Notes under the pieces: model-generated | Told to the model about the DNA's origin: nothing | The model's database searches: none | The model's input: the letters and a program-made list of their open reading frames with translations, nothing else | IMG/VR virus record: IMGVR_UViG_3300038309_000017 | Location: 1 to 23,961 of that record | Length of the DNA: 23,961 nucleotides | Strand: one strand, 5' to 3' | Source of the DNA: a virus | Translations under genes and position numbers: made by a program | Shown: in pieces, positions 1 to 16,324 of the stretch | Layout of the letters: each line of letters starts with the position of its first letter | Numbering within the stretch: position 1 is the stretch's first letter

Positions 1-72
1 TATCGATGGCAAAGACGGGGCGCCGGGCGCGGACGGTAAAGACGGCGCTCCAGGTATCGATGGCAAAGACGG
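1..72 (+). repeat. Direct repeat encoding Gly-X-Y triplets
   Basis: An 18-base sequence (TATCGATGGCAAAGACGG) occurs at 1-18 and again at 55-72. The period is 54 bases, equal to 18 codons or six collagen triplets. It lies inside the collagen-like gene and probably arose by in-frame duplication. Such repeats can change copy number between isolates. Confidence 0.8.
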
Positions 73-478
73 TAAGGACGCCCTGGAGCAGATAGAATTT
101 ATACCGGATATCGATTGGGGTAAATCATACCCCCGCGGCGTTTATGGTCATAGCGGCGGGAGCGTATACCGGTCGTACACAAAAACCGACGGGACCCGGG
201 GGTGGGACTTGTTCCTGGCCGGGCTACCAGAGCTCCACATAGACCAGCCAGACGAGCGTACAGTTCGTCTGACGAGTGGCGCCCAGACTAAGGATCTCCA
301 GCTCCCGGTTATGATCTATCGTGGCGTATGGTCTGCCGATAAGTCCTACGAGGTTGGGGACGTCGTAACCCTGCGCGGGAGTACTTGGCACTGTGACAAA
401 GCGGGGAACGCCGAGAGGCCGAATGGCCCGGACAGCGGGTGGACTATGCAGACTAAAGCCGGGAAGGATGCCTCATAA
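2..478 (+). CDS. Collagen-like phage fibre/decoration protein, C-terminal part (5' truncated)
   Basis: The reading frame is open from the window edge and ends at a TAA that overlaps the next start codon. The visible 158 residues begin with about eight Gly-X-Y triplets (GKD, GAP, GAD, GID types), as in phage collagen-like stalks that form trimeric fibres. A non-repetitive segment follows. Near the C-terminus is a stretch containing WSADKSYEVGDVV and a Trp-His-Cys, resembling the small carbohydrate-binding modules (CBM5/12-like) found on phage fibres. The protein then ends with another short GKD-like tail. Its place just upstream of head-tail connector genes suggests a head-decoration or head-fibre protein, but a neck or tail fibre is possible. 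The N-terminus lies outside the window, so length and attachment domain are unknown. Confidence 0.75.
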   Translation: MDGKDGAPGADGKDGAPGIDGKDGKDALEQIEFIPDIDWGKSYPRGVYGHSGGSVYRSYTKTDGTRGWDLFLAGLPELHIDQPDERTVRLTSGAQTKDLQLPVMIYRGVWSADKSYEVGDVVTLRGSTWHCDKAGNAERPNGPDSGWTMQTKAGKDAS

Positions 479-855
479 TGAGCCTACAATACGTGACCCT
501 TACCGAGCAGAAAAACTACTCCCAGATACTCCATACCGGACGGGACGATACTATAACTCTGCTTATTCAGGCGGCGTCCTCCCAGGTCAAGGAGTATCTA
601 AAAAATTTCTCCCCATACGAGGGGGAGAGGAACTCCGACGACGACTACTACCTCGACTCGAATTTCGAACCGGAGATAGCCCTGGACTCTAACGGATCCC
701 AGGCCATACAGCCGAGGGTAAAGCTGGCGGTCATGATGCTTGTAGATATCCAGTTATGGCCAGAACGACACCCTAAACCGATCGAAGGCCAGGGCCGACT
801 ACCTACCGCAGTAGAAACCCTGCTCTATCCACTCCGGGATCCTGCGCTAAAATGA
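478..855 (+). CDS. Head-tail connector protein, HK97 gp6-like
   Basis: This 125-residue protein has the size and pattern of HK97 gp6-type adaptors. These form a ring under the portal and link the filled head to the tail. The N-terminus has the typical start with a helix (TLTEQKNYSQILHTGRDDT), followed by a helical segment ITLLIQAASSQVKEYLKNF. The C-terminal half holds the helix RVKLAVMMLVDIQLWPERHP. The C-terminal stretch AVETLLYPLRDP matches the usual 'val.~LL~PyR' ending of the family. The ATG overlaps the upstream stop (TAATG) and the gene's own stop overlaps the next ATG, so it is translationally coupled to both neighbours. Confidence 0.82.
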   Translation: MSLQYVTLTEQKNYSQILHTGRDDTITLLIQAASSQVKEYLKNFSPYEGERNSDDDYYLDSNFEPEIALDSNGSQAIQPRVKLAVMMLVDIQLWPERHPKPIEGQGRLPTAVETLLYPLRDPALK

Positions 856-1193
856 TGAATCATCTAGTGCGAATAGACCGGAGGGTTAACTCTCAGGACC
901 CGACGAGCGGAGCCATAACGGAGACTTGGACTACGTATCTAGCCGCGGTCCCCTGTGAGATTAAACCGCTATCTGTAAGTGCATACATCCAGTCTAGGGC
1001 CCAGCAGTCGGATATATCAGTGCGCGTTAAGTTCCCTTACATAGATGGGCTCGACGATACTATGCGGTTCGTAGGGCTATGCGAGTGCCATCTCGGTAAA
1101 GTATATAATCCGGACGGGATTCTGGAGGACGACATAACAGGAAGACAGCACATAACGGTACCCTGTAGCCAGGGCGTTAATGAGGGCGCGTGA
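852..1193 (+). CDS. Head closure / head-tail adaptor, SPP1 gp16-like (phage_H_T_join)
   Basis: The 113-residue product fits the head-closure family (SPP1 gp16, lambda FII-type stopper role). It is a small beta-rich protein opening with a basic strand (LVRIDRRVN), then a 'T-G-A-I-T-E-T-W' turn and a strand reading AAVPCEIKP. Family members characteristically have 'G...~W...~~~w a~v~P~~g'. It binds below the connector ring and closes the head before tail joining. The start ATG overlaps the stop of the gp6-like gene (ATGA). Its stop is overlapped by the GTG start of the first cassette gene, so no gap separates the structural gene from the glycosyltransferase-like genes. Confidence 0.75.
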   Translation: MMNHLVRIDRRVNSQDPTSGAITETWTTYLAAVPCEIKPLSVSAYIQSRAQQSDISVRVKFPYIDGLDDTMRFVGLCECHLGKVYNPDGILEDDITGRQHITVPCSQGVNEGA

Positions 1194-1789
1194 AGTACAA
1201 GGTCAAGAAACAGAAGCCGGACGAGGACTGGAGCTCCCAGGCCTGCTGTGTTATGGCCTCAGGCCCTTCCCTTGGTTGGGATGATTACGCAGATGTCAGA
1301 ACAATAGAACAGACAGGACTGAAAACCATAGCAGTAAATAGCACGTGGTCGGTAGCTAGGTTCTGTTCGATCATATACGCTGGAGATAACAACTGGTGGC
1401 GTTATAACGCTAAGGCGATAGACATAAAAGCGGAACGGTGGAGTAGCTCCAAGTCGAGTACGATCCCTTTCGGAACAAAATACCGTAACCATAAAACACG
1501 GCCAGGATACAATTCTGGAGCTAACGCTATTGAGTTGGCCGCCAATGTAATGCACTCTCCTATTATCATCCTGTTAGGGTTTGATGGGTCTGTTACGAAA
1601 GGAACCCACCACCACGGAGACCATAAGCGTACATCTAACCCGACCCCCGATAGGTGTAAGAAATGGCAGGCACAATACGCCGACGTTCTACGGCTTTGTC
1701 CTGATACTAAAATAATAAACTGCTCAAGGTATACTGAAATAAAATGCTTTGAGCGGATGACGCTTGCGGAGGCATTAAAACACGTATGA
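1190..1789 (+). CDS. DUF115/GT42-like (sialyltransferase-fold) phage protein
   Basis: The start is a GTG overlapping the preceding TGA. The 199-residue protein has CCVMASGPSL (residues about 19-28), a GPS-type nucleotide-sugar loop. It is followed by TIAVNSTW and YAGDNNWW, then GYNSGANAIELAANV and IILLGFDGS with a cluster THHHGDH. This order is typical of a large phage and bacterial family related to DUF115 motility-accessory proteins and GT42 sialyltransferases, which use CMP-activated sugars. It is often annotated in phages without a proven role. It opens the cassette inserted between head-closure and gp10-like genes. A glycosyltransferase role is inferred from fold-level motifs and neighbours; the donor and acceptor cannot be read from sequence. 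Confidence 0.62.
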   Translation: MKYKVKKQKPDEDWSSQACCVMASGPSLGWDDYADVRTIEQTGLKTIAVNSTWSVARFCSIIYAGDNNWWRYNAKAIDIKAERWSSSKSSTIPFGTKYRNHKTRPGYNSGANAIELAANVMHSPIIILLGFDGSVTKGTHHHGDHKRTSNPTPDRCKKWQAQYADVLRLCPDTKIINCSRYTEIKCFERMTLAEALKHV

Positions 1790-2517
1790 AAACCGCATAT
1801 GTAAATCTAAGGTATACGAACGACGAAAGGGCCGCACTGTTTCACGAAGGGCTTAGACGGCTCGGATATAAAGTATCTCTTAAGGTCCCCTTAGGGCCGA
1901 AAAACCACGACGACATATTCGTAACCTGGAACCGGATAGGCAAGGCGGCCGACATTGCCTCCAGGTTTACCAAATCGGGTTGTACAGTCCTGGTAGCAGA
2001 AAACGCTACTTGGGGCAATACGTTCGCAGGGGAGAACTGGTACCACATAGCCAGGACGTACCATAACACTGCCGATACGTTCGACTACGAAGGCCCAGAG
2101 CGTTTCGACTCCCTCGGGGTCGGTCTTAAGCCGTTCAAGGATCCGGACGGCTCTGTGATCATACTGTTACAGCGAGGTATAGGCTCCCCTCCGGTCAGAG
2201 CTCCACTAAGGTTTAAACTGGATGCTATAAAAGACTATCCCGGGGCGTACCTACGTAAGCATCCAGGGAACTACAAGCCTGCCCGTCCGTTATCCGAGGA
2301 CCTGGAGCGGTACACTAAGGCGGTAACATGGGGTAGCGGAGCAGCCATAGCGGCCAGTATCGAAGGCCTGGAGGTCGTGTCATATATGCCCAAGTGGATA
2401 GGCGCCCATGAACCGACGGAGTTGAGCAGATTGGTTATGCTGAGACGTTTAGCGTGGGCCCAGTGGCGGTACTCGGAGATAGAGTCCGGTGAGGCGTTTA
2501 AGAGGCTCATAGCGTGA
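1786..2517 (+). CDS. GT-B-like glycosyltransferase-related protein (first paralogue)
   Basis: The 243-residue protein starts at an ATG overlapping the previous stop. It begins with a Rossmann-like strand (KTAYVNLRYTNDERAALF), then has DDIFVTWNR and a central strand reading SVIILLQRG. The C-terminal lobe contains YLRKHPGNY, then WGSGAAIAASIEGLEVVSY. This resembles the nucleotide-sugar end of GT-B enzymes, where a conserved S/G-S-x-A-I-x-A-x-x-x-G-x-P/E-V-V segment sits. The tail RRLAWAQWRYSEIESG is a signature of phage proteins annotated as capsular-polysaccharide or glycosyltransferase-like. The gene at 3334-4170 shows the same order of motifs, so the two are probably paralogues. No catalytic residue can be assigned with confidence. 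Confidence 0.6.
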   Translation: MKTAYVNLRYTNDERAALFHEGLRRLGYKVSLKVPLGPKNHDDIFVTWNRIGKAADIASRFTKSGCTVLVAENATWGNTFAGENWYHIARTYHNTADTFDYEGPERFDSLGVGLKPFKDPDGSVIILLQRGIGSPPVRAPLRFKLDAIKDYPGAYLRKHPGNYKPARPLSEDLERYTKAVTWGSGAAIAASIEGLEVVSYMPKWIGAHEPTELSRLVMLRRLAWAQWRYSEIESGEAFKRLIA

Positions 2518-3356
2518 AGATACTAACGACCGGAAAAGGCGGTAAGGCAGGGAGCTGGGAAGTACGAGGCGTTCAGCTAGGATCCCGTGTCGGGGACGTT
2601 ATCCCCCGGGCCTCCGTGTCCGATATGCGTAAGTACGACGTAGTAGTAGCGGTTAAACGATTAAGTCCAGGGCTAATCGGGGAGCTGCAGAGGTCCGGTA
2701 TACCATGGATATGGGATTTAGTGGACTTCTACCCCCAGCCTACCTGTACTAAGTGGGACAGGTCCCAGGCCATAAAGTGGGCAAGACACCAGATACAGTC
2801 CGCGTCTCCGGACTCCGTTATATACCCAAACGACCGAATGGCCCAAGACATAGGAATACCCGGAACGGTCGTATACCACCATGCACGGCCGGCGCTACAC
2901 GTACGCCCTGTTAAGCATAAAGTCGAGGTAGTAGGGTATGAAGGGGACCGGCGGTACCTCGGCCCATGGCGTAAGTATATACAGAGGGAGTGCAGGGCCC
3001 GTGGCTGGGTATTCGAGGAGGGACTTACTCCTGATAACTACGACATAGTGGTAGCGTTCCGCGGCCCAGACTTCGGAGGGTATACACAGCGTAACTGGAA
3101 GTCTAACGTTAAATTGGCTAACGCCCAGGGAGCGGGGGTGCCGTTCGTCGGGCAGCCGGACCCGGGGTATCTTGAGACGTCCGTATTCGGGTGCGAGCAT
3201 TGGGTAGATACCGTCCCGCAGCTTACTTTGTCGTTCGACAGGCTTACGCCATACGAGACGAGGCGAGACATACAGGTACGGTCCTGGAAGGGACGGGTAA
3301 CCCTGGCCCAATGCGCAGAGGAGGTGCGGCGCCATGCTGGACTACTTATTCCTTGA
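2514..3356 (+). CDS. Putative GT-B glycosyltransferase
   Basis: The start is a GTG overlapping the preceding stop. The 280-residue protein begins with the strand-loop MKILTTGKGGKAGSWEVRG, similar to the glycine-rich N-terminal loop of GT4-type enzymes. It has YDVVVAVKR, then a PWIWDLVDFYPQP motif that recalls the 'D..D' region of GT4 acceptor domains. The C-terminal lobe carries VVGYEGDRRYLG and NYDIVVAFRG. The segment KSNVKLANAQGAGVPFVG corresponds in position to the 'sNvkl~~A~a~G~PvI' helix that faces the donor sugar nucleotide. Family assignment rests on this layout rather than on a diagnostic catalytic motif. The 3' end overlaps the next gene by 23 bases. Confidence 0.6.
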   Translation: MKILTTGKGGKAGSWEVRGVQLGSRVGDVIPRASVSDMRKYDVVVAVKRLSPGLIGELQRSGIPWIWDLVDFYPQPTCTKWDRSQAIKWARHQIQSASPDSVIYPNDRMAQDIGIPGTVVYHHARPALHVRPVKHKVEVVGYEGDRRYLGPWRKYIQRECRARGWVFEEGLTPDNYDIVVAFRGPDFGGYTQRNWKSNVKLANAQGAGVPFVGQPDPGYLETSVFGCEHWVDTVPQLTLSFDRLTPYETRRDIQVRSWKGRVTLAQCAEEVRRHAGLLIP

Positions 3357-4170
3357 AGGGCAGAGAATGCCTAAAAAGTCCATACGGTTTTTTAACGCAC
3401 TGTACCAGACGGCTAGGGCCATAGGTTTACGGTGCCATAAGTCCACCACCTACCAGCCTTGTAAGGCCCTGGTGGTGTATGGCCCAGGAGGTCCGGACAG
3501 GTTCCCGGCCGTACAAGAACAAATCAAGTTAGGTAGAGCCGCACTCCTGTTCGATATCGGGTACTGGGACAGGGCGGGGTACCACCGTAAGTACAGGTTC
3601 TCCCTTAACGACCTCCACCCCCTCCCGGAGTACCTCCTGGCCGGGCCGAGTCCGGGCGCTAAGCGGTACGAGCAGTCCGGCCTTACTATCCACCAGAGCG
3701 CCCCTGTCAGCGACAAAAAACGAGTATTACTGGTGGGTAACGCCCCTAAGGCCTGCGCAGTCGGGGCCCGTGGGTGGACTTCCAAGAAGGCCCGGGAGAT
3801 TCGGGTCCTTATGCCAGATTACAGCATAGCCTGGAGGCCTAAGCCTGGGAGACCGCGGGAGGCCCGAGTGGAACACGATAGCGTATCTACCGAGAATATA
3901 GTCCGAGCGGTTCAAGGGTCTGCTCTGGTAGTATGTAAGCATAGTAACGTAGCTATAGACGCCTGCGTCCAGGGAGTCCCGGTAGTATGCGATAACGGGG
4001 CCGCCTCTGCGATATATCCGTCCAAGCTGCAGGAGTGGGAGCTCCAGCCCTCCTTCGAGGAGCGCAGGGAGTTCCTGCATAGACTGGCATACTGGCAATG
4101 GTCACAGCATGAAACTAACGACTTTTGGGGGTGGTTTTTCCGAACCTTTCCCGCATACGATTATAGATAA
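3334..4170 (+). CDS. GT-B-like glycosyltransferase-related protein (second paralogue)
   Basis: The ATG at 3334 is preceded by a strong ribosome-binding site, AGAGGAGG at 3317-3324, inside the end of the previous gene. The 278-residue product contains CKALVVYGPGG, a central strand RVLLVGN, a WRPKPGRP segment, then ALVVCKHSNVAIDACVQGVPVV and a C-terminal HRLAYWQWSQHE. The last three elements line up with KHPGN, the WGSGAAIAASIEG segment and RRLAWAQW of the gene at 1786-2517. The SNVAIDA-x-x-x-G-V-P-V-V segment is the usual donor-binding helix of capsule or lipopolysaccharide GT-B enzymes. The last 62 bases overlap the oxygenase gene in another frame. Substrate is unknown. Confidence 0.6.
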   Translation: MLDYLFLEGQRMPKKSIRFFNALYQTARAIGLRCHKSTTYQPCKALVVYGPGGPDRFPAVQEQIKLGRAALLFDIGYWDRAGYHRKYRFSLNDLHPLPEYLLAGPSPGAKRYEQSGLTIHQSAPVSDKKRVLLVGNAPKACAVGARGWTSKKAREIRVLMPDYSIAWRPKPGRPREARVEHDSVSTENIVRAVQGSALVVCKHSNVAIDACVQGVPVVCDNGAASAIYPSKLQEWELQPSFEERREFLHRLAYWQWSQHETNDFWGWFFRTFPAYDYR

Positions 4171-4726
4171 TTTCATAGGGCGCGAACTTGTAGCCGCAGT
4201 AAACGGGGAGTGGCCCTTACATAAACTATTCGACAAGGAGGACGGAGTCGGGCAGCGTAAATGGAACTGCCGGAGACTCCCTCCCCTTACCCAGCTCATA
4301 GTCGACGCCATAACTCCACGAGTGGTCGAGGAGATAACCGGCCTATCCGGACTCATAGCGGACCCGGTATTGTTCGGGGCGGGACTGCATGAGATACCCC
4401 GAGGTGGGTTCCTTAAAATGCACTGCGATTTTAACCGCCACCCCTGCGGCATGCGGCGGGCCGTTAACCTGCTGCTATATCTTAACGAGTACTGGGAGGA
4501 GGACTGGGGCGGGGGCCTGATACTGTCCAAGGACGGCTACAGCGTGGACGCCTGCATAAGCCCTATAGGTGGCCGGGCCGTCGTATTCGAGACGAACGAC
4601 CGTACGTGGCACGGACACCCTAAACCACTTAACACTCCTGAGGGTATCACTCGTCGGTCACTTGCGTTATATTTCTATATTGACGAACTGGTAAACGACC
4701 CTAAGACTACGGTGTATAAAAAGTGA
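4109..4726 (+). CDS. 2-oxoglutarate/Fe(II)-dependent oxygenase (prolyl-4-hydroxylase-like)
   Basis: This 205-residue enzyme has a complete set of residues for a 2OG/Fe(II) dioxygenase. The HxD iron motif is H105-C-D107 (in FLKMHCDFNRHP). The distal iron histidine is H168 in TWHGHPKPL, and the 2OG-binding arginine is R182 or R183 in ITRRSLALYFY. Between them lies the double-stranded beta-helix segment AVNLLLYLNEYWEEDWGGGL. The N-terminus (FSEPFPHTIIDNFI) is the usual entry to the P4H-like fold. This subfamily (PF13640-like) hydroxylates proteins or small molecules and often sits in sugar gene clusters. The ATG lies 62 bases inside the previous gene, and both reading frames look real. Collagen-like prolines upstream are one possible substrate; a glycan or amino-sugar is another. 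Confidence 0.82.
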   Translation: MKLTTFGGGFSEPFPHTIIDNFIGRELVAAVNGEWPLHKLFDKEDGVGQRKWNCRRLPPLTQLIVDAITPRVVEEITGLSGLIADPVLFGAGLHEIPRGGFLKMHCDFNRHPCGMRRAVNLLLYLNEYWEEDWGGGLILSKDGYSVDACISPIGGRAVVFETNDRTWHGHPKPLNTPEGITRRSLALYFYIDELVNDPKTTVYKK

Positions 4727-5241
4727 AACTAAATATAGCCTGCGGTAAGCAGACCTGGAACGGGTACTTCTGCGTAGACGCAGTGGCCCACCCTAAGGCC
4801 ACCAGACCCCCGGACCTTCTGCACGCCTTCACGTTCGACAAGGACGGGGCGCTACTGAATCCTCTACCCCTCCCCGATAACTGCGCAGACGAGCTCTGCA
4901 ACTTCCACTTTATAGAACACGTATACGCCTGGGAGGCCCCGGCTATAGTCTCGGAGTTCCGACGGCTACTTAAGCCTGGAGGCCGTCTGGTTATGGAGCT
5001 CCCTGATATCAATAAGGCGGCCAATAACCTGCTACACGGGGGCAAAGATCAGCTCTGTATGTGGCCCCTGTACGGAGACCCGGGAACCAAGGACCCGTAT
5101 ATGTGCCATCGGTGGGGGTACACCCCTAAGACTATCAAGCAACTCCTGGAGCAGGGAGGGTTTATTAAGGTACATATACTCCCGCCAAAAACTCACGGAG
5201 CCAGAGGTAATCGGGATATGCGAGTGGAGGCGGTACGGTGA
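4723..5241 (+). CDS. SAM-dependent class I methyltransferase
   Basis: The gene starts at a GTG overlapping the oxygenase stop and encodes 172 residues. The N-terminal KLNIACGKQTWNGYFCVDA is the shortened motif I plus acidic motif II of Methyltransf_11-type enzymes. It is followed by PLPDNCADELCNFHFIEHV and FRRLLKPGGRLVMELPDI, the classic post-motif strands. The C-terminal part ends with a Trp-Gly-Tyr-Thr segment (HRWGYTPKTIKQLLEQGGF), which closes the Rossmann fold. Such compact methyltransferases are very common in O-antigen, capsule and phage sugar clusters, where they methylate sugars, but protein substrates cannot be excluded. There is no DNA-methylase target-recognition domain and no (D/N)PPY motif, so DNA methylation is unlikely. 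Confidence 0.8.
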   Translation: MKLNIACGKQTWNGYFCVDAVAHPKATRPPDLLHAFTFDKDGALLNPLPLPDNCADELCNFHFIEHVYAWEAPAIVSEFRRLLKPGGRLVMELPDINKAANNLLHGGKDQLCMWPLYGDPGTKDPYMCHRWGYTPKTIKQLLEQGGFIKVHILPPKTHGARGNRDMRVEAVR

Positions 5242-5924
5242 GGGTCTATATCGGGTACGATCCTGTGGAGGACAAGGCCTACGAGGTCGCTAAGCATACT
5301 CTCCTGGCGCGGGACGACTGCCACCAGTGCATACCATTGAAGGCCGACGAACTCCGGGCCCGCGGTTTGTATTGGCGGGACGTCGACAAACGAGGCCAGC
5401 CGTATGACCTCCCGAGTCAGGCCCCCTGTAGTACCGAGTTCTCCTCCTCCCGGTTCCTTACCCCGATACTGGAGCAGGAGGGGTGGGTCCTGTTCACGGA
5501 CTGCGACGTACTGTTCCTGGATGACCCGGCCGAGATACTGTCCGAGATAACCCCAGGTAAGGCGGTCTATGTAGTTAAGCACGTACACCACGGAGCTGGT
5601 ACGAAGATGGGCGGATTAATCCAGACGGCCTATGACCGTAAGAACTGGTCCAGCGTTATGCTATTCGACTGCAGCCACCCAGCGAACCGACGGTTAACTC
5701 TTAACGACGTAAACGTCCGTCCAGGCCGGGACCTTCACCGGTTCTACTGGTTACACGATACCGAGATAGGGCAACTACACCCCCGGTGGAATTGGCTAGT
5801 AAACGTACAGGACAAACCAGAGGTACCGGGTATAGCCCACTTTACAAACGGGGGCCCATGGCTGGATAATTGGGATCCATCCCCTTACGACGAGTTATGG
5901 CTTGAGCATGCAAATAGCCGGTAA
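5238..5924 (+). CDS. GT-A glycosyltransferase with DxD motif (GT8-like)
   Basis: Starting at a GTG overlapping the methyltransferase stop, this 228-residue protein begins with VYIGYDPVEDKAYEVAKHTL. That is the typical opening of phage and bacterial GT8/GT24-like transferases. The metal- and nucleotide-sugar-binding motif is FTDCDVLFLDDP, with a D-C-D triad near residues 93-95. NWSSVMLFDC follows, matching the 'f~sGvmlfn~' strand of GT8 enzymes, and a late HFTNGGPW matches the 'H~~g~~KPW' end. This is the best supported transferase in the cassette. The last 17 bases overlap the gp10-like gene, so expression is tied to the structural operon. The sugar and acceptor are unknown. Confidence 0.8.
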   Translation: MRVYIGYDPVEDKAYEVAKHTLLARDDCHQCIPLKADELRARGLYWRDVDKRGQPYDLPSQAPCSTEFSSSRFLTPILEQEGWVLFTDCDVLFLDDPAEILSEITPGKAVYVVKHVHHGAGTKMGGLIQTAYDRKNWSSVMLFDCSHPANRRLTLNDVNVRPGRDLHRFYWLHDTEIGQLHPRWNWLVNVQDKPEVPGIAHFTNGGPWLDNWDPSPYDELWLEHANSR

Positions 5925-6459
5925 CATAGAAGGCCTGGAGGCCATAAACGCTAAGCTTGCCCAGCTTGCGGATGACTCCCGTAACAAGCCGGCTAAGTTC
6001 GCGTTGTTGAAGGCGGCCCAGCTCGTACGAGACGCCGCCAGAGCGAACGCCGCGGCCGTTAACGATCCTAAAACTCCTGAGGAGATAGCTAAGAACGTTA
6101 CCGTAAGGTTCTCCACCAAACTATACCGACAGTCCGGCCTTATCCAATACCGCGTAGGTATCCTGGGAGGGGCCCGCTCTACCTCCCGTAGCGCCGAGTA
6201 CTCCCGCAGAGCCCGTGCCCGTCGCGGCGTGCCGTCACTAGGAGACCTGGGCGAGATAGAAGGAAAGGGTAAGGGTAATCCCGGAGGAGATACGTTCTAT
6301 TGGCGGTTCCTGGAGTTCGGGACAGAGAAGCAGAAGGCCCAGCCGTTCCTACGTCGGGCTCTGGAGCGTAACGTGGGCCGTGCTATTGCTGAGTTCACAA
6401 AGCACTATGATAAGGCGATAACCCGCGCTATTAAACGACAGAGCAAAGGTAAGAAATAA
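5908..6459 (+). CDS. HK97 gp10-like neck/tail-joining protein
   Basis: The product starts MQIAGNIEGLEAINAKLAQL and runs 183 residues. The opening 'i~G~~el~~~L~~L' followed by ALLKAAQLVRDAARANA is the hallmark of the HK97 gp10 family (PF04883). Late features also fit: FYWRFLEFGTEKQKAQPFLRRALE contains the conserved 'E(F/Y)GT~~~~a~PFlrPA' signature. These proteins sit at the neck and help connect head and tail. An in-frame TTG at 5902 would add two residues (MS-). I prefer the ATG at 5908, although neither has a clear Shine-Dalgarno sequence. A low-complexity, Arg/Gly-rich loop (residues about 90-125) is longer than in many members. Confidence 0.85.
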   Translation: MQIAGNIEGLEAINAKLAQLADDSRNKPAKFALLKAAQLVRDAARANAAAVNDPKTPEEIAKNVTVRFSTKLYRQSGLIQYRVGILGGARSTSRSAEYSRRARARRGVPSLGDLGEIEGKGKGNPGGDTFYWRFLEFGTEKQKAQPFLRRALERNVGRAIAEFTKHYDKAITRAIKRQSKGKK

Positions 6460-6839
6460 TGTACCCGCCAATATTCGCAGTATGCGCAGCTAACGCCACG
6501 GTTACAGGTCTCCTCGGACTAGCGCCAGTACGACTCTACCCGGCAGGAGAGGCCCCTCCTAAACCTACTAAACCTTATGCGGTTTGGCAGATGGTAGACG
6601 GTACTCCGGAAAACTATTTAGGTACTTTACCGGATATCGACTCCTGGTCTGTACAACTGGACGTATATGCGGATACACTAGAGGAGGCCCGGGACGTAGC
6701 TGAGGCTTTACGAGATGCTATAGAACCGGTAGCGCACGTTACCCGATTCTCTACGGAGGGACGGGACCCGGATACGAATAACTACCGGTACAGTATGGAC
6801 TCGGACTGGTGGCTGGATAGGCCGGTTAATTCGAGTTAA
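6459..6839 (+). CDS. Tail terminator/completion protein (DUF3168)
   Basis: The 126-residue protein begins at an ATG overlapping the previous stop (TAATG). It has the DUF3168 layout: an N-terminal helix with 'v~~llg~~rlyp~~aPp' (LLGLAPVRLYPAGEAPPKPTKPYAVWQMV), then a beta-strand pair with SWSVQLDVYADTLEEARDVAEAL. That second part is the 'vqiDvya~~~~~a~~la~~v' signature. Family members (SPP1 gp17-like, lambda U-like in role) form the ring that ends tail-tube growth and joins the tail to the head. It lies directly before the tail tube gene, the usual position. Confidence 0.82.
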   Translation: MYPPIFAVCAANATVTGLLGLAPVRLYPAGEAPPKPTKPYAVWQMVDGTPENYLGTLPDIDSWSVQLDVYADTLEEARDVAEALRDAIEPVAHVTRFSTEGRDPDTNNYRYSMDSDWWLDRPVNSS

Positions 6840-6868
6840 ACTATAGGCTTTTAATTGAGGATTGAATA

Positions 6869-7333
6869 ATGGCAATTGCTACGCAGGGTACCTACTTATA
6901 CGCCATAGACCCGGACGACGAGTCTATTATCAATGTAGCGTGTATTACCTCTCTGGATGGTGTCGACGTTACCAACGAACAGATCGAGACTACCTGTCTC
7001 CAGGCCCTGGTTCGTACATATCAGGCAGGATTAGGTACTCCTGGACAAGCTTCATTCGGACTTAATTTCGATACTACGGAAGCTACCCATACGCGCCTCT
7101 TCGCACTTAAAAAAGCTGGTACTACTCTTAACTGGGCGATTGGTTTCTCCGACGGTACCGCGGATCCTACAGTCGATACTGGTGGTACGTTCGACCTACC
7201 CACTACCCGGTCGTTTATCCGGTTCCAAGGGTTTATGACAAACTTCCCTTTCAACTTCGCGCAGAACTCCGTAATTCAGACCACTGTAAGTATCCAAATC
7301 AGTGGGGACCCGGAGCTACACGCTAAAGCCTAA
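6869..7333 (+). CDS. Major tail tube protein
   Basis: The 154-residue product begins MAIATQGTYLYAIDPDDESI and continues with a beta-rich sequence of even composition, typical of lambda gpV/HK97-type tube proteins. It would form the hexameric rings of the tail. The start has the clearest Shine-Dalgarno sequence of the tail genes (TTGAGG at 6855-6860, eight bases before ATG). It is one of the few late genes with an intergenic gap upstream (29 bases), as expected for a highly expressed protein. Its place between a terminator protein and the G/GT chaperones is diagnostic. No C-terminal Ig-like decoration domain is present. Confidence 0.82.
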   Translation: MAIATQGTYLYAIDPDDESIINVACITSLDGVDVTNEQIETTCLQALVRTYQAGLGTPGQASFGLNFDTTEATHTRLFALKKAGTTLNWAIGFSDGTADPTVDTGGTFDLPTTRSFIRFQGFMTNFPFNFAQNSVIQTTVSIQISGDPELHAKA

Positions 7334-7343
7334 ACGGTGATAC

Positions 7344-7733
7344 ATGAAACTGACCAGAGAAGCAGTTAAGGAACGCGGGGGCCATATCGGCCCCCCGATA
7401 AAACGGAAGGTAGAGTGGACAGACGGCAATACAGGAGAGTTAGTAGAGGCGGACGTATGGGTCCGTAGACTGTCTTACTACTCCCTTGTTACCGACTCCC
7501 AACACGTAACAAAGCAGGATAAGGGCGGCATTATCGCGTCTCGTATCGCTACTGCTATTGTGGACGAGGAGGGGTGGCCCATCTTTACCGAGGGCGATAT
7601 CCTCGGGATAGACGACGAGGGTAACCCGACCCCGGATGGGCCTATAAGCTCCGAGCTCGCCGGGAATTTATACCGCCTCGTGCATGAGGTATCCAAGCTG
7701 GGAAAGTTGCCGAGTCCGGCCAACTCGGAATAG
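7344..7733 (+). CDS. Tail assembly chaperone G-like protein (unshifted product)
   Basis: The 129-residue protein follows the tail tube gene and precedes the tape measure, where lambda G lies. It is acidic, with DEEGWPIFTEGDILGIDDEGNP near the middle, and ends in a helix (ELAGNLYRLVHEVSKLG) like other phage tail chaperones. These proteins bind the tape measure and bring tube subunits to it but are not part of the finished virion. A slippery heptamer near its 3' end allows a minority of ribosomes to continue into the T frame. No other function is suggested. Confidence 0.78.
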   Translation: MKLTREAVKERGGHIGPPIKRKVEWTDGNTGELVEADVWVRRLSYYSLVTDSQHVTKQDKGGIIASRIATAIVDEEGWPIFTEGDILGIDDEGNPTPDGPISSELAGNLYRLVHEVSKLGKLPSPANSE

Positions 7734-12316: not shown

Positions 12317-15300
12317 ATGTGGCAATTCATAGCAGTACTGGTTATCGCCGCCTATGCCTATTCGAGGATCCCGAAGCCGCAGGGGCCTAAACGTCCGGGC
12401 CTTGGAGATATCCAAGCTCCTACAGCAGACCCATCCAGAGACAAGCCGGTAGTATTCGGGACTGTAGATATTAAGGCGCCTAATACTACTTGGATAGGAG
12501 GATTTACTACCGAGCCTATAAAGCAAAAACAAAAGCAGCTATTTGGTAGTAAGAAGATAACTATAGGATACCGGATCCTTCTGGGGTTTGAGTTGTGGTT
12601 ATGCAGGGGCCCAGTCGACGCCCTCGTCCGTATCCGCTTCGATGATAAGGAGGCGTGGACGGGAGAGGCCATCGACAGTCAGATATACGTTAACGCCCCA
12701 GGCCTATTTGGCGGAGACCAGGAGGAGGGAGGAGTACAGGGGTATTTCGATATCCGAAACGGGGAGGATACACAGGAGCCGAACGACTATCTACTGGCCC
12801 AGATAGGGACTGATATCCCTGCGTCGAGGGGGATGCTTTCGGTAGTATCGAGAGGCGCGTACGTGGGTACGTCACGATATCTCAAGTCTCCCGATTTTAA
12901 GGTCCGACGGGTCCGCGTACGGCAGAACGGGATAGAGCAGTGGTATGTAGTAAAGGCCCCAATAGGCGCGGTAGCGATAACGGAGTCCTATTCGGGTCCA
13001 TACTCGATTGGGTTGACTACTACGGAGGATATGGCCTACGGGGCGTCTACGTGGGTAGCCGTGGGTTTTAGTTCGGGTGCGGCCATACGTTACAGCACCG
13101 ACGACGGGCAGACCTGGAACGCTGCTAGCGGCCCTACCAATGAGACCGTGTGGGAGGTAGTGTACGGCAGCGGAGTGTTCGTCGCTACGGCAGATAGAGG
13201 ACGCTGCTACAGTTCCTCCGACGGGCAGACCTGGACGCTCGAAGCCACCCTTAGCGGGGCCATATCCGGAGGCCTTGCATACGGTGCGGGATTATTCATA
13301 GCGGGGGGCCAGAACGGTAATCTGTTCAAGCGTACGTCTGCCGGAGCTTGGTCTACTCAGCTCCTAGGGTCTCCGGGTACCGGATTCGTAGACATAACTT
13401 ACTCGAATGGAGTATGGCTGGCATTATATGCGGACCAGAGCATATTCCGATCGACGGACGGCGGGGTTATGTGGGCGAATATAGACATAGCAGACCTTAT
13501 AGACCCTCCAGTCGTATCTAACGTATGGGCCGCCATCAGACTTGGCGGATCGCTCGGGGTGCTTACCAGCGATACAGGTCTAGTAGCTGTAACCCAGGAC
13601 GCCGGCCTAACTTGGACGCAGGACGGAGTGTCCCTCCCTGCCACTATTGCCCCGACGGATGACCTCGGGAATATATGGTACGACGCAGGGCTATTCATAG
13701 TAGTGTCAGACGAGGCTAATACACTGATGTACAGCTATGACGTCCTTACCTGGACGAACATAGACGTAGTTCCTAGCGGTCTACTGGCATTGGCTACCAA
13801 CGACGACGACCTGCTTATAGTCGCTAGCCTGACGCAGGCTTATACGCTACCTCTGACACGAGACCCTCAGGTAGATCTCAACCCTGCCCACCTCATTAGG
13901 GAATGTCTTACTGACCCAGACTGGGGCATGGGGTACGACGAAGGGGACATAGACGACGTAGCGTTTATGCAGGCGGCCGACACCCTGTACGAGGAAGGGC
14001 TGGGTATGTCGCTCATATGGGACGCCAAAAAGGAGATGGGAGAGTTTATCCTCGACGTCCTCGAACACATAGACGGGTCATTATACGTCGATAAGTCTAC
14101 AGGGAAATTCGTCCTTACGCTGGTACGAGCTGACTATGTTGTCGCGTCTCTTACGTCTCTCGATGAGAGTAACGTGGTGTCCGTATCGGACTACACCAGG
14201 GTTACATTCGGAGAGCAGATTAATACCGTATCTGTTACCTATAACGACTACCTTACTGTTAGCGAGCAGAGCCAAACCGTAAGCGATATCGCACTGGTAC
14301 AGCAACAAGGAGTCCGCATAGAGACCGACCGATCGTATCCTGGAATCCGTCGGGCGGACGTAGCAGCCCGGCTGGCCGAGCGTGATCTGTTGAGCTTATC
14401 CAGGCCGCTAGTGTCGTGTACTGTCGTGGCTAACCGAGATGCAGCAGGCCTTAACATAGGGGATCCATTCAAGCTTACGTGGCCCGAGTTACAGATATCC
14501 GCCCTCGTAATGCGAGTGCAGAGCATAGCGTACGGCGACGGACGGTCGAACCGTATCAAGATAAATTGTGTCCAGGACGTATTCGATACTCCGACTACGT
14601 CGGCCAGAGGGACGGTTACCGAGACGCTACCTACCGTAAGCGCCGACGCCGAGGATATCGAGTACCTCAGGACGTTCGAACTACCTTACTACCTCCTGGC
14701 AGAGCTCTACGGGGTTGGGCAGGCAGACAGCCTGCTATCGTCGGCGCCTACCGATGGGTATCTGGCAGTTGTGGCAGGCCGACCTAACGTTCAGACTATT
14801 CTTGGCACGCTTTACACGAGTACTGACGGGGTCACCTATACATCAGACGTCGAAGTCGATTTCACTCCTGTGGCTACTATCGAAGGAGACTCTAACGGGG
14901 TATTGACTCGCACGGATACGACCGTAGTACTCACCCCCATTATAGATATGTCAGGCATAGAGCTACCCGCTATAGGTATGATAGGGGAGGAACTCGTCTA
15001 TATTACGGCTCTGGAACTTGGGACAGACGACCAATATACCGCTACCATAGGCCGGGCGTATCTCGATACGGTTCCAACTGAGCTGGACTTCGATAGCTCC
15101 GTTACTTATTTTTTCGTGGTAAGCGAAGGGACCACAGAGTCTCCAGGGGCGTATGCCTACGGGGACTTGGCATACGTCAAGGTTACGTCGAGCACTAGTA
15201 GTGACGAAACCGACGTAAGTGCGGTAACCGCATATACTCAGAAATTCAAAGGACGAGCCATACGACCTTATCCTCCAGGGAACCTGCAGGTTAATGGTAG

Positions 15301-16324
15301 TTACTATCCAGAATACATAACGGACGCTCTGAGCTTGACGTGGGCTCACAGGGACCGTATAGATCAACTCACTGATACCGACGTGGTATTCACTACAGGA
15401 GATGTCGGGCCTGAGGCAGGGACGACTTATACAGTCCGTATATACGATGAGGTCGACGCCCTCCTACACGAAGAGACCGGGATAACCGATACGGGGTACG
15501 ACTACAGTATCTCCGATGAGCTAACCGATACCGGGGGTAACGGAGACTTGTACTACGACGACGTCTCCTGCCTCCTGCACTGTGATGGGTCTAATGGCTC
15601 CACGACGATGACAGACGACGGTCCTAACTCCCTGTCGTTTACAGTTTCCGGGTCTGGGGCCCTGTCTACGGCACAGATGCGATTCGGTACAGCATCATAT
15701 CTCCCCGGAGCCTCTGGCCTTGCCAGAACCACTACCTTGACACCGTTCCAGTTCGGGTCCGGAGACTTCACTATCCAGGCGTCGGTCTACCCTACTTCGT
15801 TCCCTGCTACAGGGGCCATAGCGGCGTACTGGGCGGTGGGTGACCTGGGGTGGTTCTTCGGGATTAATTCCTCTGGACAGCTCGTCATGTTCTACAGCAC
15901 AGACGGAACTACCGGCGTGTTCCCGGCGTCCAGTTCCTCGTTAACCCTCAACCAATGGAACGACGTAGCCGTAGTACGGAGCGGGTCAACTCTCACATTC
16001 TACCTGGACGGGTCCTCTATCGGGACTTATGCCATAGGGACTGACAGCATATTTAGCTCTACGTCTCCGTTTACGGTAGGATCCGATAGCGGTACGGCTA
16101 ATCAGCAGTTCCCCGGATATATAGACGAAGTACGAGTAACGAAGGGGGTGGCGCGTACCATAATCCCGCTTACCCAGGCGTTCTATAACGCAGGCCCACT
16201 GGGACACCTTAACTCCAGACTCCGATTCGAACTGGAGAGTGTAAGGGATGGGTATACGAGTTACTATGTGCATAACGTCGTGGTGTTAAGGGATACCGAC
16301 AGTATCGGGTCCGCCAGTGTCTGA
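12317..16324 (+). CDS. J-like tail-tip/receptor protein with Asp-box propeller and LamG domain
   Basis: The ATG has a good ribosome-binding site (AAGAGGA at 12304-12310). The 1335-residue protein starts with a hydrophobic helix (FIAVLVIAAYAY) and a hub segment up to about residue 210, containing PVVFGTVDIKAP. Residues about 225-510 hold five S-x-D-x-G-x-T-W-like Asp boxes or relics with tryptophans at 267, 306, 386, 433 and 479. This predicts a sialidase- or BNR-like beta-propeller. Residues about 520-740 match the phage tail_3/TipJ hub domain (LIRECLTDPDWGMGY, then LDESNVVS). A LamG/concanavalin-like domain (about 1078-1285) reads LLHCDGSNGSTTMTDDG and GSGDFTIQASVYP. It is probably the central tip fibre. 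Sugar binding by propeller and LamG is inferred; no catalytic Arg triad was established. Confidence 0.85.
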   Translation: MWQFIAVLVIAAYAYSRIPKPQGPKRPGLGDIQAPTADPSRDKPVVFGTVDIKAPNTTWIGGFTTEPIKQKQKQLFGSKKITIGYRILLGFELWLCRGPVDALVRIRFDDKEAWTGEAIDSQIYVNAPGLFGGDQEEGGVQGYFDIRNGEDTQEPNDYLLAQIGTDIPASRGMLSVVSRGAYVGTSRYLKSPDFKVRRVRVRQNGIEQWYVVKAPIGAVAITESYSGPYSIGLTTTEDMAYGASTWVAVGFSSGAAIRYSTDDGQTWNAASGPTNETVWEVVYGSGVFVATADRGRCYSSSDGQTWTLEATLSGAISGGLAYGAGLFIAGGQNGNLFKRTSAGAWSTQLLGSPGTGFVDITYSNGVWLALYADQSIFRSTDGGVMWANIDIADLIDPPVVSNVWAAIRLGGSLGVLTSDTGLVAVTQDAGLTWTQDGVSLPATIAPTDDLGNIWYDAGLFIVVSDEANTLMYSYDVLTWTNIDVVPSGLLALATNDDDLLIVASLTQAYTLPLTRDPQVDLNPAHLIRECLTDPDWGMGYDEGDIDDVAFMQAADTLYEEGLGMSLIWDAKKEMGEFILDVLEHIDGSLYVDKSTGKFVLTLVRADYVVASLTSLDESNVVSVSDYTRVTFGEQINTVSVTYNDYLTVSEQSQTVSDIALVQQQGVRIETDRSYPGIRRADVAARLAERDLLSLSRPLVSCTVVANRDAAGLNIGDPFKLTWPELQISALVMRVQSIAYGDGRSNRIKINCVQDVFDTPTTSARGTVTETLPTVSADAEDIEYLRTFELPYYLLAELYGVGQADSLLSSAPTDGYLAVVAGRPNVQTILGTLYTSTDGVTYTSDVEVDFTPVATIEGDSNGVLTRTDTTVVLTPIIDMSGIELPAIGMIGEELVYITALELGTDDQYTATIGRAYLDTVPTELDFDSSVTYFFVVSEGTTESPGAYAYGDLAYVKVTSSTSSDETDVSAVTAYTQKFKGRAIRPYPPGNLQVNGSYYPEYITDALSLTWAHRDRIDQLTDTDVVFTTGDVGPEAGTTYTVRIYDEVDALLHEETGITDTGYDYSISDELTDTGGNGDLYYDDVSCLLHCDGSNGSTTMTDDGPNSLSFTVSGSGALSTAQMRFGTASYLPGASGLARTTTLTPFQFGSGDFTIQASVYPTSFPATGAIAAYWAVGDLGWFFGINSSGQLVMFYSTDGTTGVFPASSSSLTLNQWNDVAVVRSGSTLTFYLDGSSIGTYAIGTDSIFSSTSPFTVGSDSGTANQQFPGYIDEVRVTKGVARTIIPLTQAFYNAGPLGHLNSRLRFELESVRDGYTSYYVHNVVVLRDTDSIGSASV

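Follow-up and report, generated by a model that had tools for sequence, protein, structure and literature searches.

A seven-gene glycosyltransferase and methyltransferase cassette among phage head-tail connector genes that may decorate the virion

Why would a phage carry seven genes for sugar transfer, methylation and oxygenation between two genes that build its head-tail junction? The question is raised by the window, the whole stretch of 23,961 nt that we analyzed (IMG/VR record IMGVR_UViG_3300038309_000017, positions 1-23,961), in which seven overlapping genes, G1 to G7, occupy positions 1190-5924 between Hc1 and Ne1 (Table 1). An initial annotation had read them as a coupled cassette that might, for example, build a methylated, hydroxylated glycan for attachment to virion proteins. 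The open reading frames lie where it had placed them and the identities of the flanking genes Ad1, Hc1 and Ne1 hold. Its interpretation stands for a coupled glycosyltransferase, methyltransferase and oxygenase cassette at the head-tail junction, and is refined in that hydroxylation is optional. We consider it probable that the cassette encodes a late-expressed cytosolic pathway that equips a virion protein with a methylated glycan.

Table 1. Genes of the cassette and its flanks in the window, with the matches or models behind each assignment
Feature	Position	Strand	Assignment	Evidence
Col	2..478	+	Collagen-like with CBM5/12-like C-terminus; truncated by window start	PF02839 2.9e-5, PF01391 0.0012, phrog_1289
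Ad1	478..855	+	Head-tail adaptor	phrog_40 3.9e-10
Hc1	852..1193	+	Head closure; left edge of insertion site	PF05521 1.2e-15, phrog_25 9.6e-19
G1	1190..1789	+	GT42/alpha-2,3-sialyltransferase-like	phrog_4603 6.5e-43
G2	1786..2517	+	Putative GT-B, distant relative of WbbB (retaining Kdo transferase)	Profile match to WbbB 0.0033
G3	2514..3356	+	Predicted GT-B glycosyltransferase, GT4 type	AlphaFold, Foldseek, VIA-align
G4	3334..4170	+	Predicted GT-B, fold of KpsC/WbbB/KrkA Kdo transferases	AlphaFold, Foldseek
G5	4109..4726	+	2OG-Fe(II) oxygenase	PF13640 1.5e-16 (61.6 bits, cut-off 27)
G6	4723..5241	+	Class I SAM-dependent methyltransferase	PF08241 1.4e-6
G7	5238..5924	+	GT8-type GT-A glycosyltransferase	phrog_28018 1.4e-45, PF01501 in family
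Ne1	5902..6459	+	HK97-gp10/Neck1; right edge of site	PF04883 9.4e-5, phrog_5 3e-21
Tail terminator	6459..6839	+	Flank	phrog_78 5e-19
Major tail protein	6869..7333	+	Flank; query of prophage survey	phrog_158 1.2e-27

The arrangement of the genes points to when they are expressed. As had been claimed, every junction from Hc1 to Ne1 overlaps (8 of 8; by 4, 4, 4, 23, 62, 4, 4 and 17-23 bp), the start of Ne1 being more likely ATG 5908 than TTG 5902. Since promoter- and terminator-like matches are in addition no commoner than in shuffled sequence, the cassette is probably expressed with the virion genes. The coupling to the late virion operon proposed at the outset is thus in keeping with the sequence, and predicts late co-expression with connector and tail genes.

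The conserved core of the cassette consists of G1-G4, G6 and G7. Seventeen distinct phage lineages, counting the window and at least 16 others that are all uncultured viruses, carry at least five of these six families, and the core sits among head-tail connector genes in every one of the 17: between Hc1 and Ne1 in nine, upstream of Ad1/Hc1 in seven and split around Ad1-MTP in one. They were found with enzyme or tail proteins as queries, independently of gene position. Two head types carry the module in the connector block, either following the gene for the major capsid protein (L209, L221 and L217) or following Col (L214, L225 and L228), and a related module in L002 lies beside replication genes, outside the virion genes. 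Comparison of gene order, which the initial annotation had suggested, shows the cassette to come and go as one unit among related phages; the site is empty, for example, in Stenotrophomonas phage SOVA965, where Hc1 runs into Ne1 with an overlap of 4 bp. That these two genes are normally close neighbors was borne out by a survey of bacterial genomes with the major tail protein as an unbiased query, in which they overlap or lie at most 333 bp apart in 43 of 45 assessable prophages.

Alignment queries were required to reach these relatives: single-protein queries with G1, G3 and G5 found none among viral contigs, and a first genome scan with a single tail protein gave no match. For GT42, no part of the alignment was sufficiently conserved to serve as a scan query. 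Near DNA relatives of the window were found neither among deposited phages nor on plasmids, G3 and G4 matched nothing among 50,697 deposited phage records, and a scan of the remaining 368 genomes sampled from the host's class yielded nothing for G3 at E 1e-10. The cassette is so far known almost only from uncultured viruses.

Presence/absence polymorphism and mosaic histories across phages could also mean that polysaccharide genes of the host were inserted as a selfish or mosaic element and are useless to the phage. Against this, dN/dS values of 0.11-0.29 indicate purifying selection, the gene set is conserved in nearly constant order although core identity averages only 44%, and catalytic residues are preserved; we regard such an origin as barely credible. 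Because every gene has homologs in the same cassette elsewhere and dN/dS is in this range, the gene set is not a chance assembly.

The enzyme classes assigned initially hold, with one refinement: the three proteins described as GT-B-like are of two kinds. The first glycosyltransferase, G1, matches phrog_4603 as a whole-length profile (residues 23-197 aligned) and is 40% identical to gp10 of phage PAJU2, encoded at the same site. Its family profile aligns with residues 4-188 of the characterized GT42 enzyme CstII, weakly (E 0.14), and G1 itself scores 14.5 bits (E 0.031) against the Maf family PF01973, below the cut-off of 34.6; genes for CMP-sialate synthesis were not seen in the window. G2 can be assigned to GT-B from its homology to WbbB. 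It has the conserved motifs QRGIG and RxHPG, in which RGIG and residues R157, H159 and P160 are invariant (17 of 17), and its RxHP motif aligns with VRAHPG of WbbB. The catalytic Asp nucleophile of this family (D232 in WbbB, D160 in KpsC) is replaced in all 17 by a Gly within RGIG. G4, which is related to G2, likewise lacks an Asp in the corresponding stretch (GNAPKA, placed by analogy with G2) and keeps the RxHP motif only in part. With this Asp missing, we do not class either protein as a Kdo transferase.

Structure prediction, also suggested initially, gave confident AlphaFold models for G3 and G4, both GT-B. The G3 model (pLDDT 89.6, pTM 0.87) is predicted to be a complete GT-B fold (Foldseek 1e-7; VIA-align Z 20.8, rmsd 3.3 over 261 of 280 residues); it would be of GT4 type, other GT-B families being also compatible with the Foldseek and VIA lists. 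The G4 model (pLDDT 90.1, pTM 0.88) has KpsC as its top Foldseek match (2.8e-7), with a best structural match of Z 13.6 (rmsd 4.3, 241 residues). It compares with KpsC, WbbB and KrkA at Z 13.6-10.4 and with other GT-B proteins at 9.6 or less, which suggests a GT-B with the Kdo-transferase fold. Finally, all 21 cassette members share both Asp residues of the G7 DxD motif (D88, D90). PF01501 (GT8) matches 10 of 16 members of its family (best 4.9e-9) and the window protein at 11.3 bits, under the cut-off of 24.3, so that G7 is GT8-type and no certified member.

The methyltransferase G6 is 50-67% identical to its counterparts in four other cassettes, and a second methyltransferase is optional, being present in most relatives of the window cassette. 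The oxygenase G5 has an invariant iron triad (H105-D107-H168) and an invariant 2OG-binding R182, and its closest solved structures are prolyl-hydroxylase-like (E 0.0004 at best). It is an optional member of the cassette, found in 5 of 17 lineages and missing from 12; hydroxylation is therefore not an essential feature of the product. The same oxygenase family neighbors glycosyltransferase and methyltransferase genes in Streptomyces phages too. A role in anti-phage defense was considered and rejected: a PADLOC search of the cassette proteins gave no telling match, only hits that reflect generic domains (a CRISPR-associated "2OG" model at 3e-12 and a weak "mad2" methyltransferase).

Two further readings depend on the oxygenase. 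A 2OG oxygenase combined with glycosyltransferases is the makeup of known DNA hypermodification pathways. The cassette could thus produce a hydroxylated, glycosylated and methylated base that protects the phage genome, and there are known examples of glycosyltransferases that hypermodify the DNA of viruses (cited in PMC12619734). This is very improbable, as G5 is a member of PF13640, a prolyl-hydroxylase-like family, most lineages lack the oxygenase, the genes sit in the late virion operon, and no base- or nucleotide-modifying enzyme is found in the cassette or among the visible replication genes (DNA polymerase, ssDNA-binding protein and exonuclease). Alternatively, G5 might hydroxylate the collagen-like repeats of Col for subsequent glycosylation, as in mimivirus L230, since Col carries 8 GXY repeats and is encoded two genes before the cassette, in which oxygenase and glycosyltransferase genes are co-located. 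The distributions of oxygenase and repeats do not match, however. The longest repeats (33, 28 and 21 GXY) belong to L214, L225 and L206, which have no oxygenase; SOVA965 has 26 GXY repeats and no oxygenase match in its whole record; L119 and L123, which do encode the oxygenase, have repeat runs of just 4; and in L091, also oxygenase-positive, Col is missing from that place. We rejected collagen hydroxylation by G5 on these grounds and give it very little chance.

How does the cassette compare with known systems? Virion glycosylation, for which the initial annotation had cited mycobacteriophages as precedent, is documented there, e.g. in cluster F1 phage Che8 (PMC11256854, PMC12619734), with glycans reported on capsid and tail-tube subunits (PMC12619734). 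By its published description, cluster O phage Corndog resembles the window in having methyltransferase and glycosyltransferase genes (gp35-gp38) in its virion structural operon, a trait shared by all 17 cassette lineages, and differs in gene number, site and its mycobacterial host. Its O-methyltransferase and three glycosyltransferases are encoded between portal and protease; the enzymes are made in infected cells and were not detected when virions were analyzed by SDS-PAGE, and a role in modifying the capsid was proposed (PMC4351075).

Reduced versions of the cassette are found in the Pseudomonas Detreviruses PAJU2 and D3. PAJU2 has the same virion backbone and an orthologous GT42 in the order Hc1-[GT42, gp11, methyltransferase]-Ne1; in D3 the GT42 lies upstream of Ad1 and the other two genes between Hc1 and Ne1; and another cultured phage, Psp6, has a reduced module similar to that of PAJU2. 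Unlike the window, the PAJU2/D3 module has three genes only and no G2-G7, and PAJU2 gp11 and gp12 matched none of the window's cassette proteins. The hosts of L091, PAJU2 and D3 are Gram-negative. In the giant Caulobacter phage CcrBL9 (Bertelyvirus), gp527-gp522 read GT42-G2-G2-like-G7-MT-GT9 directly after the tail genes; this module differs in lacking G3 and the oxygenase, in its added GT9 and in its site between tail genes and endolysin rather than among connectors. Phage P1, of another type and without G2-G6, shares GT42-like genes and a glycosyltransferase gene in pmgO-pmgP-ppp-pmgQ, with pmgO homologous and the label putatively morphogenetic only. Its pmgO, pmgP and pmgQ are dispensable for plaques (PMC10695390), as expected for decoration. 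Maf (PF01973) and CstII (GT42) belong to a CstII-like sugar-transferase fold family to which G1 shows weak similarity; Maf enzymes attach O-glycans to a structural protein before its assembly into a filament (PMC11339370).

The GT42, GT4 and GT8 proteins are also common LPS enzymes. The main rival to virion decoration is a late modification of the host LPS core or capsule, for instance blocking re-adsorption to debris or the entry of other phages. Host LPS and capsule are made by the same enzyme families, and a host-surface target therefore has to be weighed: G2 and G4 are similar to the Kdo transferases that act in capsule and LPS assembly, CcrBL9 adds a GT9 heptosyltransferase-like gene, known hosts are Gram-negative (L091, PAJU2 and D3), and the L002 module lies by replication genes. 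The enzyme families and the L002 module also count against the virion reading. On the other hand, linkage to connector genes is strict in all 17 lineages; the cassette proteins lack hydrophobic segments of the membrane-anchor type, and the cassette encodes neither a flippase nor a polymerase, ligase or acyltransferase; expression in the late operon would not change the lysogen, unlike known seroconversion genes; and the oxygenase family accompanies glycosyltransferase and methyltransferase genes in phages of Streptomyces, which has no LPS. We therefore think a host-surface target rather unlikely.

Decoration of the virion is favored by the linkage to the connector block in two head types, the empty sites and reduced forms, the lack of a membrane anchor, the dN/dS values and the Corndog precedent. 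The recurrence of one enzyme set at a virion-gene position in at least 16 other viruses makes it likely that these phages coat part of their particle with a custom methylated sugar. From this we infer the synthesis of the glycan, its virion acceptor, the order of the steps and the benefit, as follows. The seven genes would be translated late, together with connector and tail genes, and soluble cytosolic glycosyltransferases would add sugars in sequence to at least one virion protein before or during assembly, the donors probably being host nucleotide-sugars. G7 might make the first transfer to protein, or G1 in the manner of Maf on flagellin, and the remaining glycosyltransferases would extend the chain. 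G6, with the second methyltransferase in most relatives, would methylate the sugar and the oxygenase, where encoded, may hydroxylate the sugar or an acceptor residue. The decorated particle would have an altered surface chemistry, affecting adsorption, stability or recognition. Col, a homolog of PAJU2 gp07, is a candidate acceptor in the window; its absence upstream in L091, L209, L221 and L217 excludes it as a universal one. No obvious Ser/Thr-rich extension was seen in those major capsid and tail proteins that we inspected.

Mycobacteriophages such as Corndog provide a precedent for the idea of a virion glycan. If this idea is true here, virion glycosylation extends to temperate phages of Gram-negative bacteria. 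A conserved multi-enzyme locus can now be named, and the cultured phages PAJU2, D3 and CcrBL9 carry reduced or related versions amenable to mass spectrometry. More speculatively, the cassette could be a phage "glycotype" locus: a fixed enzyme set, including a GT-B family with an invariant RGIG in place of the Kdo-transferase Asp, that builds a methylated particle glycan, possibly with CMP-activated ulosonic acids, and whose individual enzymes phages would swap with one another as a means of varying the glycan, in the manner of bacterial O-antigen loci. If such swapping does vary the glycan, the surface chemistry of the particle would be a diversifying trait for adsorption and particle recognition.

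The initial annotation described a seven-gene sugar/oxygenase/methyltransferase cassette within the head-tail operon, and this arrangement is confirmed: the ORFs fill the interval between the head-closure gene (Hc1) and the HK97-gp10/Neck1 gene (Ne1), each overlapping the next, and it extends to relatives. Five of the eight junctions from Hc1 to Ne1 are 4-base ATGA/GTGA overlaps, the remainder measuring 23, 62 and 17-23 bases. Promoter-like and terminator-like matches across the region showed no excess over shuffled sequence (4 vs 5.9 and 7 vs 6.1 expected, respectively), which, together with the gene layout, suggests that the cassette would be co-expressed late with the virion genes. The IMG/VR virus record, 23,961 bases long, is probably a fragment.

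The site is usually empty. When an alignment of the major tail protein was run against bacterial genomes, 63 loci emerged, most of them from Pseudomonas and other gammaproteobacteria; the Hc1-Ne1 site was readable in 45, with 43 empty and 2 filled. Addition of phage records and enzyme-query viral contigs gave 49 empty and 7 filled, an enlarged set that is not an unbiased frequency. Three "empty" loci (Psp6, L064 and L093) carry GT42 genes upstream of the head-tail adaptor gene Ad1. In Stenotrophomonas phage SOVA965, the deposited phage with the tail protein most similar to that of the window, Hc1 overlaps Ne1 by 4 bases; the cultured Pseudomonas phage PAJU2 has a GT42 gene, gp11 and a methyltransferase gene at the same site.

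Features of the window and of compared loci
Feature	Locus	Coordinates	Remarks
Seven cassette ORFs	window	1190-5924	between Hc1 and Ne1; overlap at every junction
Col-type gene	window	2-478	upstream of Ad1; collagen-like, CBM5/12-like C-terminus; also in L214, L225, L206
Col-type gene	SOVA965 (L047)	6503-7414	as above
Tail-tip protein	window	12317-16324	C-terminal Laminin-G-like domain (PF13385, 7.2e-22)
Small protein	L091	1911-2306	between major capsid and GT42 genes; Pro/Ala/Ser/Thr-rich tail
GT42 genes (two)	L091	2333-2722; 8545-9123	one truncated, upstream of Ad1 as in cultured Pseudomonas phage D3
HNH-like ORF	L091	7029-7844	between methyltransferase and G7
Integrase-like ORF	L202 (L119 contig)	534-1529	identified by eye
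Oxygenase-GT-methyltransferase-GT row	Streptomyces phage Zuko (L052)	3823-6315	
Oxygenase-GT-methyltransferase-GT row	Streptomyces phage KimJongPhill (L053)	3959-6432	

The matches bear out an enzyme cassette of glycosyltransferases, a methyltransferase and an oxygenase. G1 matched the alpha-2,3-sialyltransferase-like phrog_4603 (6.5e-43), and matches to PF13640 (1.5e-16) and PF08241 (1.4e-6) identify G5 as a predicted 2OG-Fe(II) oxygenase and G6 as a predicted methyltransferase. The window's G7 alone matched no family above the cut-off; 10 of 16 members of its family matched GT8 (best 4.9e-9), and its DxD motif is invariant. G2, G3 and G4 had no family in Pfam, PHROG or NCBIfam. By its predicted model (pLDDT 89.6; Z 20.8 in structure comparison), G3 is a complete GT4-type GT-B protein. 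The G4 model (pLDDT 90.1) has its best structural matches in KpsC, WbbB and KrkA, all retaining Kdo transferases (Z 13.6 to 10.4); GT-B proteins of other kinds score 9.6 and below. G2 is related to G4 and to WbbB (0.0033) and retains the RxHP motif. G2 and G4 resemble Kdo transferases without being classed as such, because G2 has a glycine where WbbB has its nucleophile D232, within an RGIG motif invariant in 17/17. In L016, L018, L023, L024, L027-L030 and others, G7 is naturally fused to a G2/G4-like GT-B as a single protein of ~560 residues, which suggests a functional link between the two enzymes.

All seven families occur at the same site in the gammaproteobacterial prophage L091, with 39-67% identity to the window. 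Scans with oxygenase and methyltransferase alignments found further cassettes; after lineages were collapsed at 90% methyltransferase identity, 17, window included, had at least five of six core families (GT42, G2, G3, G4, MT and G7), and 14 had all six. The connector block houses the cassette in every one: between Hc1 and Ne1 in nine, upstream of Ad1/Hc1 in seven, and split in L206 (GT42 before Hc1, the remainder after a tail-tube-like gene). Incomplete contigs (L122, L204, L207, L208, L210 and L218) are consistent with this pattern. The order of the genes hardly varies: GT42 stands at one end or the other, and G3 swaps positions with a second methyltransferase (11/17 lineages). G3 and G4 had no match among 50,697 deposited phage records. 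The integrase-like ORF suggests that carrier phages may be temperate, like L091. The oxygenase is present in only 5/17 lineages. DNA hypermodification by these enzymes is unlikely because the oxygenase is thus optional and no base-modifying partner lies among the genes in view. Relatives of G5 occur in large phage sugar clusters (L055, marine virus AG-345-L05, and L054), the cyanophage-like L055 cluster having, by eye, NeuB-like, cytidylyltransferase-like, epimerase and fucosyltransferase-like genes; the Zuko and KimJongPhill oxygenases, from phages of Gram-positive hosts, are 37% identical to G5.

dN/dS was 0.11-0.29 in pairs with usable divergence, dS being saturated in some. Across 11 lineages the core enzymes (G2, G3, G4, MT, G7) averaged 44% identity vs 33% for neighbouring virion proteins, with the core ahead in 52 of 55 pairs; these figures, like the correlations, are descriptive because pairs are non-independent. 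Virion genes correlate among themselves (r 0.40-0.77), indicating a common history; G3, G4 and MT intercorrelate (0.30-0.44) and are uncorrelated with virion genes, G7 tracks neither group, and G2 and GT42 partly track virion genes. Judged from these comparisons, the cassette is a mosaic in which individual enzymes are exchanged and the set retained.

GXY runs in Col-type proteins range from none (PAJU2) to 33 (L214). The PHROG label "portal" given to this gene is apparently an error, because in PAJU2 and SOVA965 the portal is encoded by a separate gene. Action of the oxygenase on Col was rejected, the longest repeats lying in oxygenase-less loci. A BNR/sortilin-like repeat insert (~residues 215-510) apparently interrupts the conserved core of the window's tail-tip protein; this and the apparent Laminin-G-like domain at its C-terminus are possible carbohydrate-binding parts. 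The L091 small-protein tail is of a type often O-glycosylated, and none was seen in other cassettes examined.

GT and methyltransferase genes inside a virion operon are of an already known kind; the present Gram-negative version, which is conserved and mosaic and includes an unusual GT-B family, appears to be undescribed in the literature searched, which included few subscription papers. Late modification of the host surface, the main rival, draws on enzyme families that also serve LPS and capsule synthesis, but we give it a small chance: the cassette is strictly linked to connector genes, lacks membrane components, and belongs to a late operon, which is silent in lysogens. Corndog is the closest precedent for virion decoration: its O-methyltransferase and three GTs, encoded between portal and protease, were detected in infected cells, were not detected in virions on gels, and were proposed to modify the capsid (PMC4351075). 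Glycans affecting antibody binding are reported on mycobacteriophage capsid and tail-tube subunits (PMC11256854, PMC12619734). Plaque formation by P1 does not require the GT42-like pmgO or the adjacent pmgP and pmgQ (PMC10695390), as decoration predicts. Maf proteins, with a CstII-like central domain, glycosylate flagellin (PMC11339370) and therefore offer a model in which a structural protein is modified by a CstII-like enzyme; G1 resembles both Maf and CstII only weakly. The virion glycosylation suggested in the initial annotation is partly supported; the GT/methyltransferase set is kept among connector genes in 17/17 lineages. The simplest reading is probably a soluble enzyme pathway that would be produced together with the particle proteins and would decorate one of them.
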